A DNA stretch of 48,079 bases, taken from the NCBI GenBank assembly GCA_016795505.1, contig JAEUHH010000021.1, positions 1 to 48,079 on the forward strand, written 5' to 3'. This DNA is from Verrucomicrobiales bacterium (lineage in GTDB: Bacteria; Verrucomicrobiota; Verrucomicrobiia; Verrucomicrobiales; DEV007). Positions within the stretch are counted from its first letter, which is position 1. Each line of letters begins with the position of its first letter. The notes under the pieces were generated by a model, which saw only the letters and a program-made list of their open reading frames with translations, was not told the origin of the DNA and made no database searches. The position numbers and the translations under genes were made by a program. Below, one piece after another: positions 10,131 through 48,079 of the stretch.

Positions 10131-10230
10131 TGTCCGGCCGCGAGCCGGAGGCTCGACGGAAATAAGCCGGCGGCGACAGCCGCCGGATCTCCGCACCCAA
10201 AAATCGGAGCGCCCCGGCAGGGGCGACGGA
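10131..10230. repeat. Cluster of three GC hairpins (REP-like)
   Basis: After the helicase stop there are three short palindromes in about 90 bases: GAGCCGGAGGCTC, CCGGCGGCGACAGCCGCCGG, and CGCCCCGGCAGGGGCG. The first and third are each followed by GACGGAAA or a near copy. This spacing of hairpin plus GACGGAA suggests a repetitive extragenic palindrome family. Any one could help stop transcription, though no T-tract follows. Confidence 0.5.
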
Positions 10231-16185: not shown

Positions 16186-16552
16186 CGGATGGGGGCTCCT
16201 TTCTTGTCTATAGGAATAGACGGAGGAAGCCGGTCGTTTTATTCCGATGGAACCCTGTTTGATCGCCGATCAAACAGGGTCTGATCGGATCGGCGCGGGA
16301 ATAAAAGGGAGTGCCCGGTAAAACTCACCAGGCCCACAAATGTCCCGCGCGATCAGTTGCCCACGATGCTCACCTGCCGCCCCTGCCGGGGCGTTCTGGT
16401 GGAGGGCCGTTCGCCACCGGCTTTTATCCGCGAAGCCTCCGGCTCCGGTTTCGGGGATCAACTGCCGCGGAAAGCCCGAACTGACCGGTCTACCATGCCG
16501 GGAAGCCGCAGGGAGAGGGGGCGTTCGGGATGAAACGTTGTCGGAACTGGTA
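16186..16552. other. Intergenic region with repeat and GC hairpin
   Basis: There are 367 bases between the small basic frame and the end of the LamG gene. It holds the 22-bp repeat pair (16244-16287) and one CGCCCC/GGGGCG hairpin near 16379-16394 resembling that at 10.2 kb. Apart from these I see no gene. Confidence 0.5.
16244..16288. repeat. 22-bp dispersed repeat, locus C (inverted pair)
   Basis: Two 22-base units in opposite orientation. Bases 16252-16264 and 16268-16280 form perfect 13-bp arms (GATCAAACAGGGT and its complement) around a 3-base loop. It lies between convergent genes, so a hairpin in either transcript could act as a bidirectional stop. Confidence 0.8.
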
Positions 16553-23865: not shown

Positions 23866-24235
23866 GTGAACGGTGAGAAACGAAACACCTTTTGTTTCGG
23901 AACGCCAGCCCGCAAACGAGCCGGGATTTTGGCCGTAAGAAAGGGGTGGTTTCCGATGCAACAGGGTCTGATCGCCGATGCAACCCTGTTGCATCGGAAT
24001 CCGCCCTCCCAATGACCGCGCCGCTGGCTCTCCTGATTTTCCGATGCGGGTCGGCAAAGAGATCCAGATGGACGGCGCCTCCGCCACCGCGCTGAAGCTT
24101 CTCCGGCGAGCCTGGCGAGAGCGCGGCGCCATCACGTAGCGGCGGCGATTGGGCATGAGGTTTATCGGTGGAGAACGACAGATTTTTAAGGAAGATTTTT
24201 CACCACCAAAAGGACGACTCGGTCCCAGATCAGGA
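23866..24235. other. Divergent promoter region between two cytochrome/DUF1501 operons
   Basis: These 370 bases separate the minus-strand PSD1-DUF1501 operon from the plus-strand DUF1501-PSD1 operon, so both promoters should be here. The 22-bp repeats lie at 23953-23997. The remainder is less GC-rich near 24170-24215 (TTTTTAAGGAAGATTTTTCACC), a likely promoter zone for the plus-strand gene. No operator was identified. Confidence 0.45.
23953..23997. repeat. 22-bp dispersed repeat, locus D (unit plus self-palindromic unit)
   Basis: Unit one (23953-23974) is CCGATGCAACAGGGT, two bases, then GATCG. Unit two (23975-23997) is a perfect palindrome, CCGATGCAAC, a 3-base loop, and GTTGCATCGG. It sits in the divergent spacer of two operons. 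Confidence 0.8.
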
Positions 24236-30507: not shown

Positions 30508-30593
30508 TGCCGATAATGGCTATGATGTCTGAGGCATCTATTTTGCTCGAAACACCCCTTTGCACCGATGAACTGTCGTCATTCCGTGCCATT

Positions 30594-30638
30594 CCGATCA
30601 TACCCTGTTTCCTCTCCGATCAGACAGGGTTTGATCGG
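30594..30638. repeat. 22-bp dispersed repeat, locus E (two units)
   Basis: CCGATCATACCCTGT with a 7-base tail (30594-30615), then CCGATCAGACAGGGT with TTGATCGG (30616-30638). The units are in opposite orientation over the ACAGGGT/ACCCTGT core. The array ends 1 base before the stop codon of the minus-strand ATPase gene and lies between convergent genes. Confidence 0.8.
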
Positions 30639-30639
30639 T

Positions 30640-33600
30640 TCATTTCTTTCGGCTCCGCGATCGTGGGGGCTTCGGCAGGGGGCGGCGGCGGGTTTTTTCG
30701 GGCAAATGGTTGAGCCGTCGCTCGATGCCGTCGTAGAAGATCTCGGCCGTGGCGCGGATTTCGGGTGCGATATTTCGGAGTGCCTGGCGGTCCCCAATTT
30801 GCAAGGCCCGCAGGGCCTCGACCCAGGGCCGGAGCCGGGCGGCGGTGTCTCCCAGGCCATCCACGAAGGCGATGAGTTCGTCGCCGTAGTTGAGGTGAAT
30901 GAGTACGGCGCTGGTGCGGAGCCAGTCGTCGGTGGTGTTCGGTGAGAAGCCATCGGAGCGGAGTTCGATGGCTTGGGTGAGCGCTTCGCGAGCGAGGCCC
31001 CAGTTGTCGTCGTAAGCGGCAAAAAGGGCTTCGTGGAGGTGGGTGGTGTCGGGAAATTGGTGTTCAAGTAGAGCCATCAGGTCCGTCATGAGCGGACGGG
31101 CGGCGGGTCCTTTACCCAGGAAATCACGCTGCAGGAATAGGTAGTTCTGATGTGCAGATTCATTGGTTGGCCTCAACTTGAGTGCCGATTCAAATGCTGA
31201 AGCAGCATCCGCTGGTCTGTGGAGGTAATCACAGTAAAGACTGCCGAGACAACTCCAGAGTGCAGAGTTCTTCGGATCGAGGGCTACGGCATCCCGCAAG
31301 ATAGACTCGGCTTCGGGGTGGCGACGCAAATGTTCCTCCGGAATGATGCCAAATTTGACCAAAAGCACCGCAAGTTTGGGGGCACAGGAAATCGCCTCCT
31401 GGAACGCGGTTCCGGCTTCGCTAAAGCGTTTGAGTTTGTCTTGGAGCAAAGTGCCGAGTTCAATCCAAGTCCAGGCACTCCTGGAGTCGCGAGCTATTGC
31501 CTCCCGGTAAGCTGCATCCGCTTCGGAGTAGCGATGCAAATTGTCTTTCAGGAGGTTGCCCAGAAAAAACCAAGGTGTGGCATCTTTTGGGTTGATGGAA
31601 ATAGCCTCTTGAAAAGCAGTTTCGGCTTCAGAAAATCGCTGCTTGGTGCTTCCGAGAAGAATTCCCAGCCCAATCCAAGACAACGCATACCTCGGGTTGA
31701 TGTCGATGGCTTTTCTAAATGCGGCCTCAGCATCAGCGTGGCGGAGGAAGTGGGATTCTAGTAAGGAGCCAAGATTGTGCCAGGCATGTTCCGAATTGGG
31801 ATCGCGGGTAATTGCCTCGTGGTAGGCGGTTTCGGACTCGTCGTAGCGGGACAGTTTGAAGCGCAGATCGTTGCCCCAATTAACAAATTGCCAACTGGGA
31901 GCGTCTGGGCCAGGCGTCAGTTTCTCACGAATGCGGTCCAACGCGGCATCGCTTAGCTGCGCACCAAAGTCATTGGGCAACGAATCCACCAGCATTTGCA
32001 GGCAGGTTGCCTCCCCGGTTTGGAGGATGGTTCGATTCCAATCCTCCGCATCGTCACGACTCCGAATCTGCCCCGTGGCGAGCCGGTTCGAGAACCAGTC
32101 GACAGATTCTTCGTGATACCTTTGGATGTCGGAAGCGCGGGAGGCGGCGATGGCTTTGAGAATGGCCTCGATCTCTGCGGTTTCGAGTTTCCCCGAGCGC
32201 GCGGCGAGTTTTTCTCGTTCGCCGCTCATGAACAGAGCCCGATCGCCGAGCACCGCTTTGGCAAAAGTCTCGGGATCGGTCTCGCCCGCCTCCGGCACCA
32301 ACGACATGAGCTTTTTTCGTAAGTCATCGAAAGCCAGGGTCGCGGGAGGCAATTGGCTGAAATCGATGATTTCGTGCAACCGGGCGCGGGCCTCACGGGC
32401 TTCCTCCCGCAGGGCGGTCAGTTCAGCGTGGCGTTTGAGATCTTCGGCGGTGTGAGGCTCGTCGCGGAGGCTGTCAGCCACGGCGCGGCTCCAGAGATAG
32501 CGGTCGGGGCTGAAGCCATCCTCCGCCATGAGATGCCGGGCGATGCGGCTGCGATCGGAGGGTTCGTAGAAATTTTCCAGAAATCGGGTGAGGAACTCCA
32601 CCTCGCGCCGCTGGCGGCGGGAGGCACTGCGCATGAGGAACCAGATGTTGAAGAAGCGCTCGGCAATCATGTAGCCGGTGCGGGATTCGCCGAAGAGCTC
32701 GGTGCGCTCGATGACGCCGGTTTTTTCCAAGCGGTCCAACTGGGCGCTGATGGTGCCGGCAGGGAGTCCCGTATTCGCCGCCAGAGCGGCGGCGGTGATG
32801 GGATCCCAATGGTTGGCGATGGCGCTGGTGATGACCTGCTGCTGGGGGGTGAGTTCCTCGAATCGGGCTTTGTACAAGGGAGTGACCCGATCGAGCAGTC
32901 CCTCCAGGTCGCCAAAGACACTGGGGGCGAAGTCTTCCGCGTAGAGAAGAAACAGCGTCAGCGTGGTCCGCGGATTGCCGCCGGTGAGCTGCCGCAGCAC
33001 CTTCAGGCGGGCGGGATGCTGGAGCACGCGCTGGCGCACATCGTCGCGCTGGGCGGCGGCGGCGAGATGGAGGAGCAGGTCGCGCATCTCGGCCTCCTCC
33101 AGCGGGCGCAGGTAGTGGACTTTGAAGTGATCGTAAAAGGCCGCGCCGTAATCCTGGCTCTGGGGCGGCGGGCTGGGGCTGGCTCCGACGAGGATGGGGG
33201 CACCCGGCCGCGTCAGCAGCTCGCGCAGGCTGTGTTGCTGGCCCGACTCGAGTCGCTCGAAGACCAGTTGCAGATTGTCCACCAGCAGCACGGGTCGCTG
33301 ACCGCTCGTTTGGGCGGCCGCGGCAAAGGCGGCATAGACTTCGTCGGCAAAGAGCTGGTCGTCTTTCGGCGCGGAAAAGCCGCCGGAGGTCAGACGCTTC
33401 ACCGTGGCATCGATCGCTTCGACGGCCTCGGTCTGATTGTCCGCCTCGCGGGCATCGGCGAGGGAGTCGAGGCAGTTCAGCCAGAATTTCGACAGCCGGT
33501 CCACGGCGTATTGCTCCTCCGCGAAGACGAGCGGGACGAATCGTTCCCTCAGCGCGGGTTCGGTGCGCAATTCCGCCGCGAGACGGGCCAGGAGCATGGT

Positions 33601-37716: not shown

Positions 37717-37782
37717 CCGACCAGACAGGGTCTCATCGGAGATCCGACCCTGTCTCATCTCCGATGGGACCCTCTCGGATCG
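37717..37782. repeat. 22-bp dispersed repeat, locus F (three units)
   Basis: Three units of exactly 22 bases: CCGACCAGACAGGGT (37717), a unit with inverted core GACCCTGTC (37739), and CCGATGGGACCCTCT (37761). The array sits between the ends of two convergent genes and reaches to 3 bases from the stop codon of the minus-strand gene (37786). Confidence 0.8.
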
Positions 37783-39279: not shown

Positions 39280-39636
39280 CCCCGGATCGGAGCTCTGAGC
39301 CTCGAAATCGGAGGTCTGAGCTCCGAAATCGGAGGTCTGAGCCCCGAAATCGGAGGTCTGAGCTCCGAAATCGGAGGTCTGAGCCTCGAAATCGGAGGTC
39401 TGAGCTCGGAAATCGGAGGTCTGAACTCCGAAATCGGAGGTCTGAGCTCCGAAATCGGAGGTCTGAGCCTCGAAATCGGAGCTCTGAGCTCCGAAATCGG
39501 AGGTCTGAGCCTCGAAATCGGAGGTCTGAGCCTCGAAATCGGAGCTTTGAGCCCCGAAATCGGAGCTTTGAGCCCCGAAATCGGAGCTTTGAGCCCCGAA
39601 TTCGGAGCTTTGACCCCCGAATTCGGACCGATGCCC
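39280..39636. repeat. 21-bp tandem repeat (minisatellite), about 17 copies
   Basis: Units of 21 bases follow the pattern CTCGAAATCGGAGGTCTGAGC with variation at a few positions. Sixteen clear units run from 39301 to 39636, with one degenerate unit before them. Because 21 is a multiple of three all frames stay open: the plus frame reads LSSEIGG heptads and the minus frame SDFGAQT-type heptads. The tract lies about 130 bases upstream of a PSD1 gene and is probably non-coding. Such tracts change copy number by slippage. Confidence 0.85.
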
Positions 39637-41709: not shown

Positions 41710-43146
41710 ATGATCGATCCCCAGTTGTCAGAGGCGCTGTCGCGCCGCCGCTTCCTCAAGAGCACGGCCAGTGGCATCGGGACCGTGGCGCTGGCTTCGC
41801 TGCTGCGGGATGAGGGCCTGCTGGCGGCGCCCGCGGGGTCGGCGCGGCCGCATTTCGCACCCAAGGCGAAGCGCTGCATCTACTTCTTCATGGAGGGCGG
41901 GCCGAGCCAGATGGATCTCTTCGATCCCAAGCCGAAGCTCAACGAACTCGACGGCCAGCCCATGCCGGACTCCCTGCTGGAGGGGGTGAAATTCGCCTTC
42001 ACGCAGAAGGAAAGCGCCCGCCTGATGGGTAGCCCGCGCAGCTTCCGGAAATACGGCGAGTGCGGCATGGACATGAGCGATCTGCTCCCGCATCTCAGCA
42101 CCTGCGCCGACGACATCGCGCTGGTGCGGTCGATGTACTGCGAGCAGTTCAATCACCTGCCCGGCCAGTTGCTCATGCTGACGGGCTCGCCCCTGCGCGG
42201 CTGGCCCACCCTGGGATCGTGGCTCAACTACGGCCTCGGCAGCGAGAGCAGCGACCTGCCCGGCTACGTGGTGCTGACCACTCTGGGCCGCGGCCTGCCG
42301 GGAGGCGCGGCCAGTTGGTCGAGCGGTTTTCTGCCGTCGAACTACGGCGGTTCCCTGTTCCGCAACGCCGGCAGCCCGGTGCTGAACCTGGAAAACCCGC
42401 CGACCATCACCGCGGCGATGCAACAGCGCAGTCTGGAGGCGATCACGGCGCTGAATCGCCAGCGGCTCGATGCCACCGGCCATGCGGAGATCGCCGCGCG
42501 CATCGCGAACTACGAGCTGGCCTTCCGCATGCAGTCAGCCGCGCCCGAGTTGCTCGACCTCTCCGGCGAGTCGCCGTCCACGCTGGAGGCCTACGGGGTG
42601 AACCGGCAGGACAAATCGGGCTTCGAGGGCTCCTTCGCGCGGAATTGCCTGCTCGCGCGTCGCATGGTCGAGCGGGGCGTGCGATTCGTCACCCTTTTCC
42701 TGTCCACCTGGGATCAGCACAGCAATCTCGACTCCGGCCTGTCGACCAATACCAGGATCTCCGACCAGCCCGTCGCCGCCCTGCTCAAGGATCTGAAGGA
42801 GCGCGGCCTGCTGGAGGACACCCTGGTCGTCTGGGGCGGCGAGTTCGGCCGCACGCCGCTGGGCGAGAATCGCAAGGGCTTTGCCAAGGTCACCGGGCGC
42901 GATCATCACCCGTATTCCTTCAGCCTCTGGATGGCTGGCGGCGGGGTGAAGGGTGGCCAGATCATTGGCAAGACCGATGAGATCGGCTGGGGCGTCACCG
43001 AGGACCCCATCCATGTCCATGATCTCCACGCGACGATCCTGCACCTGTTTGGATTCGATCACGAGGAGCTGACCTACCGCTTCCAGGGCCGCGATTTCCG
43101 GCTCACGGATGTCCACGGCAAGGTGGTGAAGAAATTGCTCGCCTGA
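41710..43146 (+). CDS. DUF1501 secreted protein
   Basis: This is a 478-residue DUF1501 protein, 6 bases after the PSD1 gene. SRRRFLKSTASGIGTVALAS near residue 11 is a twin-arginine signal. Blocks: AKRCIYFFMEGGPSQMDLFD, WGGEFGRTPLG, GRDHHPYSFSLWMAGGGVKG, HVHDLHATILHLFGFDHEEL and FRLTDVHGKVVKKLLA. The partner order PSD1 then DUF1501 is the standard one. No activity is proven for the family. The 3' end faces the giant palindrome. Confidence 0.93.
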   Translation: MIDPQLSEALSRRRFLKSTASGIGTVALASLLRDEGLLAAPAGSARPHFAPKAKRCIYFFMEGGPSQMDLFDPKPKLNELDGQPMPDSLLEGVKFAFTQKESARLMGSPRSFRKYGECGMDMSDLLPHLSTCADDIALVRSMYCEQFNHLPGQLLMLTGSPLRGWPTLGSWLNYGLGSESSDLPGYVVLTTLGRGLPGGAASWSSGFLPSNYGGSLFRNAGSPVLNLENPPTITAAMQQRSLEAITALNRQRLDATGHAEIAARIANYELAFRMQSAAPELLDLSGESPSTLEAYGVNRQDKSGFEGSFARNCLLARRMVERGVRFVTLFLSTWDQHSNLDSGLSTNTRISDQPVAALLKDLKERGLLEDTLVVWGGEFGRTPLGENRKGFAKVTGRDHHPYSFSLWMAGGGVKGGQIIGKTDEIGWGVTEDPIHVHDLHATILHLFGFDHEELTYRFQGRDFRLTDVHGKVVKKLLA

Positions 43147-43182
43147 CGACCGCGACTGCGGCGTCGAGCGCGGGGCTGGCTC

Positions 43183-43226
43183 CCGATCAGACAGGGTCTG
43201 ACCTCCGATCATACCCGAATGCCACG
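43183..43226. repeat. 22-bp dispersed repeat, locus G left part (two units)
   Basis: CCGATCAGACAGGGT plus a 7-base tail (43183-43204), then CCGATCATACCCGAATGCC (from 43205), which is the outer left arm of the 366-bp palindrome. Confidence 0.7.
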
Positions 43227-43570
43227 GGATTTAGGCCGTGGCTCGCCGTTCCAGGCGCTCAGATGCCGGAGGCATCGCAGCGATTAGCCGGTGGTTGAGC
43301 GCAGCGATACCACCGGTCAAATCGCTCTCATGTTCGAGCATCCCGGCAGGGATGCCAGCCAGCCGCCGTGACCGCCGAAGCCGCGTGCCGCCTTGCCTGC
43401 TGGCATCCCTGCCGGGATGCCCGGCTCTTTTTCCTATCTGTCCGGTGGTGTCGTCGCTGCGCTCCTCAACCACCGGCTAATCGCTGTGATGCCTCCGGCA
43501 TCTCATTTCATCGGCAAGTCGGATTTTGGCGATGAATCGGCTGAATCCCGTGGCATTCGGGTATCATCGG
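43205..43570. repeat. 366-bp nested palindrome between convergent DUF1501 genes
   Basis: Three nested pairs of arms share almost one centre. Outer: 43205-43233 with 43542-43570, near-identical inverted copies (CCGATCATACCCGAATGCC type). Middle: about 43261-43320 with about 43439-43503, nearly identical over 55 bases, beginning AGATGCCGGAGGCATC. Inner: GCATCCCGGCAGGGATGC (43338-43356) with its inverted copy (about 43400-43420). A tip of about 39 bases remains. In RNA this would fold into a long, branched hairpin; in DNA it could extrude as a cruciform. No frame across it looks coding. Confidence 0.8.
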
Positions 43571-43624
43571 AGAGGCAACAGGGTATCATCGGAGAGGCAA
43601 CAGGGTATCATCGGAGAGGCAACA
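43559..43624. repeat. 22-bp tandem repeat, locus G right part (three identical units)
   Basis: Three consecutive identical 22-base copies start at 43559, 43581 and 43603, each GGGTATCATCGGAGAGGCAAC plus one base, followed by a partial fourth. The GCAACAGGGT part aligns with the core of the dispersed family. Their identity suggests recent duplication. The first overlaps the right outer arm of the 366-bp palindrome. Confidence 0.85.
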
Positions 43625-43670
43625 GGGTTGCATCAGAAATGGCGCCGTGCCGTCGATGGTGCGGGGGGCT

Positions 43671-45098
43671 TCAAGCCACGATCTTGTCGATCACTTTGCC
43701 AAACACGTCGGTCAGGCGGTAATCGCGGCCCTGGAAGCGGTAGGTGAGCCGCTCATGGTCGAGTCCTAGCAGGTGGAGCAGGGTGGCCTGGATGTCATGC
43801 ACGTGCACGGAGTCCTCCACGACATTGAAGCCGAGTTCATCGGTGGCGCCGATGGTGATGCCGGGCTTGATGCCGCCGCCGGCGAGCCACATGGTGAAGG
43901 CCTGCGGATGGTGGTCGCGCCCCTGGCTGCGGCCCAGCGCGGCGCTGGCCTCGACCATCGGGGTGCGGCCGAATTCGCCACCCCAGATGACGAGCGTGTC
44001 ATCGAGCAGGCCGCGCTCCTTCAGATCCTGGATCAGGGCGGCGCTGGCCTGGTCGGTGTCGCGGGTCTTGCCGATGACGCCGTTTTCCACCTGGGAATGG
44101 TGATCCCAGCCGCCGTCGTAAACCTGCACGAAGCGCACGCCGCGCTCGATGAGGCGCCGGGCGAGGAGGCAGTTGTTGGCAAAGGCGGCCTTGCCGTCGC
44201 CCGGCTTGGCGCCGTAAAGCTCGAGGGTCCGGGGATGCTCGGAGGAAAAATCCATCAGCTCGGGAGCGGCTGACTGCATGCGGTAGGCCATCTCGTAGGC
44301 GTCGATGCGGGTCCGGATCTCGGGATCGCCGGCAATGCCGAGCCGGCGCTCGTTGAGCCGTCGGATGAGGTCGAGCGAGTCGCGCTGGGCGCGGTCGTCG
44401 TAGCCGGGGGGATTCGACAGGTGCAGGATGGGATCGCCGCTCTCGCGGAAGTTCACCCCGGCATGGGTGGTGGGCAGAAAGCCGGCGCTCCACATGGCGG
44501 CGCCGCCACTGAGGGCACCACCGCTTTTCAATACGACGAAGGAGGGCAGGCTGTCCGTGTCGCTGCCGATGCCGTAGCTGAGCCACGAGCCGATGGCCGG
44601 CCGGCCGGGGATGGGGCTGCCGGTATTGAAGAAGATCTGGGCCGGTGCGTGATTGAACTGCTCGGTGTGGACCGACTTCACGATGGCGATGTCGTCCACC
44701 ACTTTGGCCAGGTGGGGCAGCCGGTCGGAGATCTCGGCGCCGCTTTCGCCATGGCGGGCAAAGGGGAAGCGGGGCGCCAGCACGGCGGCGTCGGGCTGGA
44801 TGAAGGCGTAGCGCTGGCCGGCGATGACGGAGGGCGGGATGGGCTTTCCATCGAGTTCGCGCAGCTTGGGCTTGTTGTCGAACAACTCGAGCTGGCTCGG
44901 CGCGCCGGCCATGAACAGGTAGATGACCCGCTTGGCCCGGGCTGCGTGATGGCTCGGCTTCGGCGTGAAAGGCCCGTCGGCGGCGAGTCCCTGTCGCGCG
45001 CAGAGGGAGGCGAGGGCGATCTTGCCCAGGCCGACGCCGCAGTCGCGGAAGAGTTGCCGCCGGGTCTGGTGTTGCAGGGAATGGAGTCCGGAGTGCAT
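43671..45098 (-). CDS. DUF1501 secreted protein without adjacent PSD1 partner
   Basis: This is a 475-residue DUF1501 protein. TRRQLFRDCGVGLGKIALAS at residue 12 is a twin-arginine-type signal. Blocks: AKRVIYLFMAGAPSQLELFD, WGGEFGRTPMV, GRDHHPQAFTMWLAGGGIKP, HVHDIQATLLHLLGLDHERL and YRLTDVFGKVIDKIVA. The gene upstream on the same strand is an SRPBCC protein, and none of the DUF1549/DUF1553 partners lies next to it, so this copy is an orphan. It may use the partner encoded at 39.8 kb, or be a relic. Confidence 0.93.
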   Translation of the reverse strand: MHSGLHSLQHQTRRQLFRDCGVGLGKIALASLCARQGLAADGPFTPKPSHHAARAKRVIYLFMAGAPSQLELFDNKPKLRELDGKPIPPSVIAGQRYAFIQPDAAVLAPRFPFARHGESGAEISDRLPHLAKVVDDIAIVKSVHTEQFNHAPAQIFFNTGSPIPGRPAIGSWLSYGIGSDTDSLPSFVVLKSGGALSGGAAMWSAGFLPTTHAGVNFRESGDPILHLSNPPGYDDRAQRDSLDLIRRLNERRLGIAGDPEIRTRIDAYEMAYRMQSAAPELMDFSSEHPRTLELYGAKPGDGKAAFANNCLLARRLIERGVRFVQVYDGGWDHHSQVENGVIGKTRDTDQASAALIQDLKERGLLDDTLVIWGGEFGRTPMVEASAALGRSQGRDHHPQAFTMWLAGGGIKPGITIGATDELGFNVVEDSVHVHDIQATLLHLLGLDHERLTYRFQGRDYRLTDVFGKVIDKIVA

Positions 45099-47007: not shown

Positions 47008-48079
47008 TTCTCCTGAACATCAATTTCCTGCTGTATGCCTACAATCCCCATGTGCCGCAGCATGGGGCCGCCTCCTCTTGGTGGGAGGCCGTGATGAATG
47101 GCCCTGAACTCATCGGATTGCCGAACGAGGTATCCCTTGGCTTCATTCGCATCGTCACCCATTCCAGGCTCGGCCCTGCCGCCGCCATCGTCACCTGCCT
47201 CGTCAAATCTGACGCGCCCGCCGGCCCCGTCAGCGCCGACACCGTGATCGAGCAGAGCGAGACCGCCTACGATCGCGGCGGCAACGCCATCCTCCAGACC
47301 CGGCGCGAGCGTTTTCATGATGCCACCGGCACCGGACCGCTGGACTCCCCTGGGAGCGCCGGCATCCTGCCGGCCGCCCGCCGCTCTTACACAGCATCCT
47401 ACCAAGACCCCATCGGCTGCGGCGGCAACGCCATCCTCCAGACCCGCCGCGAGCGCTTCCACGACGCCACCGGCACCGGCCCGCTCCATGGCCCCACCGG
47501 GACCGCGGGCGTCTCGCCCGCTCCATCAGCCCGGCGCAGCTATGCCGCCTTCTACCAAGACCCCATCGGCTGCGGCGGCAACGCCATCCTCCAGACCCGG
47601 CGCGAGCGCTTCCACGACGCCACCGGCACCGGCCCGCTCCATGGCCCCACCGGGACCACGGGCGTCTCGCCCGCCCCATCAGCCCGGCGCAGCTATGCCG
47701 CCTTCTACCAAGACCCCATCGGCCGCTCCCGGTATTCCATCAACATCGGCACCAATGGCGGCGCCGCCTACGAGCGTCCCGACCTGCCGCCCGCGCCCTC
47801 CGACACCGCGCTCGTTTCGGAGACCCGCTACGCCGCCGATGGCCAGCCCGGCAGTGAGATCGGGCCGGATGGGACCATCACGCAGACCACCCGCGACCGC
47901 CTCGGCCAGCCCCTGCGCAGCGTCGAGGCCCTCGGCAGCCCGGCCCAGCGCGTCACCCGCTTCCGCTGGCACGCCTCCGGCCAGATGTCGCATCTCATCC
48001 TGGAGAACCCCGCCACCGGCGAGCAGGTCACGGAATGGCTCTTCGGCACCACGCTGGCGACCAGTGGCGTGGCACGGAA
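47004..48079 (+). CDS. Chimeric open frame: truncated VapC-like PIN domain fused to Rhs/YD-repeat sequence (incomplete at window end)
   Basis: The frame stays open from ATG 47004 to the window end with no stop. The first 58 or so codons look like a VapC toxin N-terminus: FLLYAYNPHVPQHGAASSWW, then LIGLPNEVSLGFIRIVTHS. Residue 5, the catalytic Asp of PIN nucleases (usually in a VDVN pattern), is Asn here (LLNIN). The toxin then stops near codon 58, roughly half its usual length. From about 47180 the translation becomes PVC-type Rhs sequence: DTVIEQSETAYDRGGNAILQ, QTRRERFHDATGTGPL, GTNGGAAYERPDLPPAPSD and a YD-like ETRYAADGQPGSEIGPDGT. The Rhs part holds two tandem 51-residue modules after a shorter first one. 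The toxin is probably dead, and the Rhs part is a fragment of a large gene. Confidence 0.7.
   Translation, partial: MILLNINFLLYAYNPHVPQHGAASSWWEAVMNGPELIGLPNEVSLGFIRIVTHSRLGPAAAIVTCLVKSDAPAGPVSADTVIEQSETAYDRGGNAILQTRRERFHDATGTGPLDSPGSAGILPAARRSYTASYQDPIGCGGNAILQTRRERFHDATGTGPLHGPTGTAGVSPAPSARRSYAAFYQDPIGCGGNAILQTRRERFHDATGTGPLHGPTGTTGVSPAPSARRSYAAFYQDPIGRSRYSINIGTNGGAAYERPDLPPAPSDTALVSETRYAADGQPGSEIGPDGTITQTTRDRLGQPLRSVEALGSPAQRVTRFRWHASGQMSHLILENPATGEQVTEWLFGTTLATSGVAR
47274..47723 (+). repeat. In-frame tandem modules and palindromes inside the Rhs-like frame
   Basis: Three in-frame modules start at 47274, 47418 and 47571; the last two are 153 bases each and almost identical, the first is 144 bases and diverged. 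Each contains GGNAILQTRRERFHDATGTG followed by a variable linker. The linkers are encoded by palindromes: GCCGGC/GCCGGC around ATCCT (47358-47374) gives SAGILPA, and GCGGGCG/CGCCCGC around TCT (47505-47521) gives TAGVSPA, repeated at about 47658. These hairpins resemble the intergenic GC palindromes of this window. Confidence 0.65.

Follow-up and report, generated by a model that had tools for sequence, protein, structure and literature searches.

A dispersed three-hairpin palindrome in a Verrucomicrobiales genome resembles an oversized REPIN and shares its hairpins with a Y1 transposase gene

Results

A nested palindrome between convergent genes

The stretch of DNA analysed here (the window) is one contig (C45; 48,079 nucleotides) of the genome of a Verrucomicrobiales bacterium, which comprises 6.55 Mb in 120 contigs. 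Between two convergent DUF1501 genes (41710–43146 on the forward strand and 43671–45098 on the reverse strand), themselves inverted paralogues with 54% amino-acid identity, lies a palindrome at 43205–43570. Its structure, its many copies in the genome, and a Y1 transposase gene that carries the same hairpins are the subject of this report. A sequence-only reading of the window had described three nested arm pairs sharing nearly the same centre, the outer arms bearing the core of a 22-bp repeat family. Both features are confirmed: the three pairs have centres at approximately 43379–43388, and the 22-bp core is present on both sides (Table 1). Each half of the palindrome contains three local hairpins, A, B and C. 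When folded, the palindrome gives z-scores of −20.2 (as RNA) and −20.3 (as DNA) relative to shuffled sequences of the same dinucleotide content; in each case none of 100 shuffles was as good.

Table 1. Coordinates of the palindrome, its component parts and a second copy within the window.
Feature	Position	Strand	Description	Evidence
Outer arm pair	43203–43247/43528–43572		45 nt, 82% complementary	
Middle arm pair	43261–43299/43465–43503		39 nt, 97% complementary	
Continuation of middle arm pair	43290–43314/43447–43471		25 nt, 76% complementary	
Inner arm pair	43335–43359/43399–43423		25 nt, 96% complementary	
Whole element, T arm to T' arm	43217–43558		342 bp; 43205–43570 including the 22-bp cores at both ends	
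Left outer arm	43205–43231	+	22-bp-family core 43205–43216, then T 43217–43231	
Hairpin A	43262–43276	+	Stem 6, loop 3	Sequence, 23-copy alignment, pair counts
TTAG foot and hairpin B	43284–43316	+	Foot 43284–43287, hairpin 43288–43316; REP-like unit, L-type loop	
Hairpin C	43338–43355	+	Stem 7	Sequence, 23-copy alignment, pair counts
Hairpin C'	43403–43420	-	Followed by CGGCTCTTTTT on the + strand, a terminator-like pattern	
Hairpin B' and TTAG foot	43442–43480	-	Hairpin 43442–43476, foot 43477–43480; R-type loop	
Hairpin A'	43488–43502	-		Sequence, 23-copy alignment, pair counts
Right outer arm	43544–43570	-	T' 43544–43558, then 22-bp-family core 43559–43570	
22-bp tandem array	43559–43628	.	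3.2 copies; adjoins right end of palindrome	
Truncated second copy	30508–30594	+	Decayed right half (A', T'), then 22-bp-family units	T-arm match 30533–30594, 84%

The palindrome belongs to a dispersed family

A search of the genome with the palindrome returned 87 DNA matches, the two strands taken together. BLAST, followed by merging within the stretches fetched around these matches, defined 49 element places genome-wide, partial copies and the two halves of a transposase-bearing copy included. The sequence-only reading had allowed that the symmetry might be a one-off duplication without a second copy; instead, dozens of further copies exist and they are dispersed. An inverted duplication arising once, within the inverted arrangement of the flanking DUF1501 genes, draws on the fact that these genes are inverted paralogues, but the dozens of copies at unrelated places rule it out for all practical purposes.

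Some copies are recent. Almost half of the places (22 of 49) fall within 45 bases of a contig end, and among these contig-end copies 19 of the 141 compared pairs are 97.6–100% identical over their shared stretches. Including 30-base flanks and copies truncated on opposite sides lowers the median across all compared contig-end pairs to 0.855; for the 27 inner copies the median identity is 0.60. On the simplest reading, the assembly stops at the youngest copies because they resemble one another so closely. They form a young, near-identical subfamily within a family that has recently been spreading. The window copy is older, being 78% identical to two young copies. The T arms are retained in the young copies. 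The T arm, used as query, matched 23 places, 16 of them already known; the seven absent from the earlier list include the truncated copy at 30508–30594 of the window.

Each element is a head-to-head pair of tagged hairpins

Alignment of 23 near-full cores gives the order A-B-C-centre-C'-B'-A' over 228–279 bp, beyond which many copies also carry T arms and the 22-bp core. Unit B, placed between A (outer) and C (inner), consists of an NTAG foot and then a CCGGTGGT..ACCACCGG hairpin, for which there are 87 exact sites in the genome as against none for a control pattern. A full element has two B units, inverted and head to head with their tags outside; the whole element is palindromic because its halves face each other. 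Among the 46 B units of the 23 full copies, 45 have an NTAG foot on the outer side (TTAG in 37, GTAG in seven and CTAG in one), and the remaining unit has GTTG. An L-type loop is paired with an R-type loop in all 22 copies in which both loops are readable, an indirect indication that the dimer may spread as a unit.

The earlier suggestion that compensating changes preserve the pairing of the arms applies more to the short local hairpins than to the long palindrome, and such changes are few. Under a local-hairpin model 98.5% of 960 cells pair, a value reached in none of 500 shuffles; under a long-palindrome model 94.0% of 1722 cells pair, and 15 of 500 shuffles are as high. In five copies a T-A pair of the B stem has become C-G (on the left in C27, C34 and two near-duplicate C55 copies, on the right in C44). 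The local pair stays Watson-Crick each time, while the change breaks one of the two long-palindrome pairs that it touches and turns the other into G-U. The long-palindrome model nevertheless has more two-sided cells (19 versus 5) and a higher covariation score. Because events are few, the two-sided cells favour the long model and slid controls score well (see Discussion), we draw no strong conclusion as to local versus long pairing.

These data also bear on the proposal that the palindrome is a structured non-coding RNA gene. Its predicted fold is indeed very stable, but nothing supports an RNA specifically: the element has no Rfam match at the gathering threshold, no sigma-70-like promoter was found within 43000–43750, and the five B-stem changes keep the local pair at the expense of the long one. 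A known RNA family was rejected, the only matches being microRNA-like hairpins far below thresholds, which we take as generic hairpin matches. We regard an RNA gene as very improbable.

The same hairpins bracket a Y1 transposase gene

There are 17 Y1_Tnp matches in the genome. One of these, L032 (C21:57218–57664), is an intact Y1 (HUH) transposase gene, with A-B repeats and C on one side and C'-B'-A' repeats on the other. The hairpins are the element's own A, B and C, standing in element order and in mirrored order, with the C hairpins near the start codon and near the stop codon. Since the A-B-C set brackets the gene in the same order, the palindrome looks like a version of this unit in which a centre of about 22–65 bp has taken the place of the gene. 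Inverted-repeat scores for the gene flanks are 92 at L032, 67 at L030, 44 at L033 and only 11 at L029, and scores exceed the 95% point of the null in 52 of 83 loci; this null is strict, because its shuffled pairs come from related loci.

At a threshold of E 1e-15, five places in the genome match the L032 protein: L032 itself and four others at 55, 43, 40 and 39%, of which the 39% match contains a TAG. A transposase unit in multiple near-identical copies was not found in this genome; the numerous part is the gene-less palindrome. Two other Y1 genes, L033 and L030, have a layout of the L032 type with other stems, and L030 (C10) has its own tagged hairpin family, TAGCCCGGnGTGAAACnCCGGG, whose 18 exact genomic sites include two next to the gene. 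L033 (positions 1402–1848 of the locus, on C53), whose bracketing hairpins are of the A-B-C type but differ in the A and C stems, was rejected as parent: its HUH motif reads DHVP and its product is probably inactive. Also rejected was L031 (positions 1040–2340 of the locus, on C20), a broken Y1 gene with different hairpins of its own that lies within an element copy, the C' hairpin flanking the insert on both sides.

The L032 product (148 residues) scores 73.1 bits against the Pfam Y1_Tnp model (PF01797; cut-off 23), 55.2 against the NCBIfam IS200/IS605 transposase model (NF033573; cut-off 55) and 18.3 bits against REP_Tyr_transpos (cut-off 80), the NCBIfam model for the repetitive extragenic palindromic (REP)-associated tyrosine transposases (RAYTs). 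Six of eight other Y1 proteins scanned pass the IS200 cut-off, with L033 (48.7) and L178 (54.3) below it, and none nears the REP cut-off (best 31.3). The HUH motif and catalytic tyrosine are invariant in 30 aligned proteins. An AlphaFold2 model (pLDDT 89.2, pTM 0.80) lies nearest to IS200/IS605 transposases (2fyx, Z 14.3, 113 aligned residues, 2.4 Å; ISDra2 2xqc, Z 13.9, 106 aligned, 2.1 Å; range for ISDra2-type transposases 13.8–14.3), with a lower score for the REP transposase 4er8 (Z 10.2, 119 aligned, 3.3 Å). With its Y1_Tnp domain, HUH motif and catalytic tyrosine, the enzyme belongs to the IS200/IS605 transposase family.

The motifs of the protein are DHVH, WQ and YIANQAEHH; the class-2 RAYT signature (Y---NP / NP(L/V)(R/K)xG) is absent. 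By motif alone it would fall in TnpA-Y1 subclass 1.2 rather than among the classical RAYTs. As tabulated by Quentin and colleagues (2018, PMC6006769), subclass 1.2 has DH[IV]H, WQ, YIKNQKEHH, a length of 148 residues and a REP entry of 'no', and occurs mostly in Cyanobacteria and Bacteroidetes. L032 shares with it these motifs (the last as Y---Q--HH), the length, low copy number and divergent copies. It differs from the tabulated members in that tagged hairpins flank many of its relatives in Acidobacteria and in the Planctomycetes-Verrucomicrobia-Chlamydiae (PVC) group.

Tagged hairpins flank related enzymes in other genomes

A scan of named genomes for relatives of the L032 protein confirmed at least 185 loci, the best 80 of which are considered here. 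The full DHuH, WQ and Y---Q--HH signature is present in 68 of these 80, and Y---NP in none. Where signature loci have at least 150 bp of flank on both sides (n = 62), an NTAG hairpin occurs upstream in 39, downstream in 43 and on both sides in 32, compared with 14 of 652 control segments from the same loci. Across all relatives with enough flank the both-sided count is 39 of 74; a stricter earlier run on 74 loci gave 45 upstream, 47 downstream and 37 on both sides, with controls of 4/65 and 4/62. The records that contain loci with both-sided tags bear the labels Verrucomicrobia, Kiritimatiellae, Planctomycetota, Acidobacteria, Hydrogenedentota and Fimbriimonas, among others; in the stricter run none of five loci labelled Bacteroidetes, Bacteroidota, Flavobacteriales or Parafilimonas had both-sided tags. 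A general left/right asymmetry of loops at the enzyme genes was not borne out (shorter upstream in seven, shorter downstream in five, equal in 20).

Of 288 genomes sampled across the phylum, 14 contain the exact tagged B pattern. In the head-to-head pairs among the sites listed for G251 (four) and G300 (three) the two B loops differ, one being short and one long; in the two such pairs of G281 they are equal. Comparison with 38 relatives (own genome included, 18 candidates scored per genome), as the sequence-only reading had proposed, gave element matches in at least ten. The three same-genus genomes have 0, 0 and 4 matches, against 42 listed in the genome itself. An L032 homologue of at least 75% is found only in G020, G015 and G013 (in G013 broken by a TAA), and in all three arm matches lie directly beside it, as they do beside a homologue of 51% in G014.

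Elements lie outside called genes and mostly end at 22-bp repeats

Placement was assessed for 47 of the 49 places (two under 90 bp were omitted), with genes predicted by a home-made codon-usage caller. No element lies inside a called gene. The 19 copies with a gene on both sides comprise 12 between co-directional genes, five between convergent and two between divergent genes; at 28 places there is a gene on one side only, and 21 of these face its 3' end. Gene ends within 500 bp of an element are 3' in 30 cases and 5' in 11 (p 0.004). This count used 33 of the 47 places: rows with no gene within 500 bp were omitted, as were C44_18828 (a tandem neighbour facing the same gene's 3' end) and C20_9655 (beside the L031 transposase; a 5' end).

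The bias toward 3' ends is what one would expect of a structural or regulatory DNA or RNA element that terminates transcription or protects mRNA 3' ends, its copies being kept as helpful; two terminator-like patterns at C', where 0.5 were expected, point the same way. Promoter avoidance would, however, yield the same bias, 12 of the 19 two-sided copies are co-directional, and the recent near-identical copies point to spread. We therefore think a regulatory origin rather unlikely. The more specific proposal of a cruciform blocking convergent transcription suits the window copy, but few of the other two-sided copies share its convergent setting.

The 22-bp core (CCGATCAGACCC) has 118 + 115 = 233 exact sites in the genome (control, none). 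Of 45 scored element ends 42 abut this core, in orientations split 22 and 20, whereas only 68 of 20,000 random positions do so. The suggestion that the element grew inside a repeat array is thus borne out as far as its ends are concerned, but the 22-bp family also occurs without it. Tandem runs and inverted pairs lacking the large element are seen across the genome and, in the window, at 16252–16290, 23951–23995, 30594–30640 and 37728–37775, several of these window sites being intergenic.

Ends of this kind raise the possibility of a conventional miniature inverted-repeat transposable element (MITE), in which the outer inverted repeats (22-bp core plus T) would be the termini for an unknown, perhaps lost, transposase and A-B-C mere passengers. 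Terminal inverted repeats are present, young copies are alike out to T, and the same core stands beside T at nearly all ends. Yet all 23 T-arm matches in the genome, including the seven newly found ones, which were checked, adjoin modules of this element family; no other T-bearing unit or full-length transposon was seen, and NTAG-tagged hairpins are enriched beside Y1 genes. We consider a conventional MITE unlikely.

Other features of the window

The window also contains an Acido-Lenti-1 RNA (10141–10186, reverse strand; 40 bits against a gathering score of 37), a 21-bp tandem array of 16.3 copies (39286–39627) in the first part of a long open frame that matches DUF1549/DUF1553 further on, and a 153-bp tandem repeat (47399–47723; 2.1 copies, 98% matches).

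Discussion

The dozens of dispersed copies, the young near-identical subfamily and the arms held in common with a transposase gene support the earlier suggestion of a mobile element. We think it probable that the palindrome is a non-autonomous, oversized element, like a MITE or like the hairpin-forming REP doublets known as REPINs, moved in trans by the Y1 enzyme that L032 encodes. A dimer of the enzyme would bind both B hairpins in single-stranded DNA, the NTAG foot would guide cleavage, and the DNA between the two B hairpins would be moved or copied. Insertion beside 22-bp repeats, combined with survival mostly downstream of genes, could then give the present distribution, and the long palindrome would be a by-product of two inverted ends. 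Action on a single-stranded hairpin with the foot as guide has been described for REP transposases (PMC8266576), and a similar mechanism was proposed for REPINs (PMC3116915).

Several observations weigh against this proposal. The unit common to young copies reaches T, some 55–70 bp past B, a stretch that simple B cleavage would leave behind; the mechanism explains neither this extent nor the 22-bp ends in two orientations. The L032 locus is without T, and its link to the palindrome is drawn from shared hairpin sequences. Covariation in B is slight (five cells, two from near-duplicate copies), and local pairs slid by −3 or +3 give similar or higher scores. Among the signature relatives, 30 of 62 do not have tagged hairpins on both sides, and five genomes (G003, G004, G021, G028 and G035) have arm matches without an adjacent homologue. 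No movement or excision was observed, and searches at the window, C39 and C61 sites found no clean empty site: at the first, three genomes of the same genus have the neighbouring genes with no A, C or T close by, but the genes stand on different contigs; at C39 only the left gene was matched, with no element downstream in G002 (approximately 137 bp visible) or G003; at C61 there was no match.

The closest parallel is with REPINs as described by Bertels and Rainey (2011, PMC3116915): there, as here, REP-like sequences form an inverted doublet that is intergenic, dispersed and hairpin-forming, and its sequence recurs in the flanks of a Y1 transposase gene (here L032) in the same genome; the doublet, which is the unit there, may be the unit here too. 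The present element adds hairpins A and C and the outer T arms, and its putative enzyme is not a class-2 RAYT. Structurally, then, it may work as a REPIN does, but with a different enzyme. IS200/IS605 insertion sequences share the protein family and fold of the L032 enzyme and likewise have subterminal hairpins. The GTAG repeats, REPtrons and TIRtrons of Di Nocera and colleagues (2013, PMC3733652) also contain tagged hairpins in head-to-head dimers. Because that account includes Verrucomicrobia among the hosts, dimer spacers that hold stem-loops, and, in Pseudomonas, composite terminal inverted repeats that combine a degenerate REP with a further stem-loop, the general kind of element is already known. 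The differences are that the foot here is mostly TTAG, that A-B-C triplets stand on both sides, and that B and B' in the window copy are separated by a 125-bp spacer, longer than the 20–100 bp of most dimers in that account. A search of the main texts of open-access papers found nothing on REPs that accompany enzymes of subclass 1.2, on elements of this kind in Verrucomicrobia, or on the 22-bp repeats.

For those who assemble such genomes the contig-end copies carry a warning, namely that assemblies break at palindromes of this kind. The wider implication concerns the enzymes. REPINs have so far been linked with RAYTs of class 2; the enzyme associated with them here is IS200-like and of a subgroup listed as lacking repeats. 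It is an evenly balanced question whether Y1 enzymes with the subclass 1.2 signature constitute a second lineage of REP transposases, one that acts independently of RAYTs in Verrucomicrobiota and neighbouring phyla, where it drives TTAG/GTAG REPs and large three-hairpin REPINs, with one population of these expanding in this genome. If they do, an enzyme close to the structurally solved IS200/IS605 transposases, together with a young and numerous substrate, would make the movement of REPINs directly testable.
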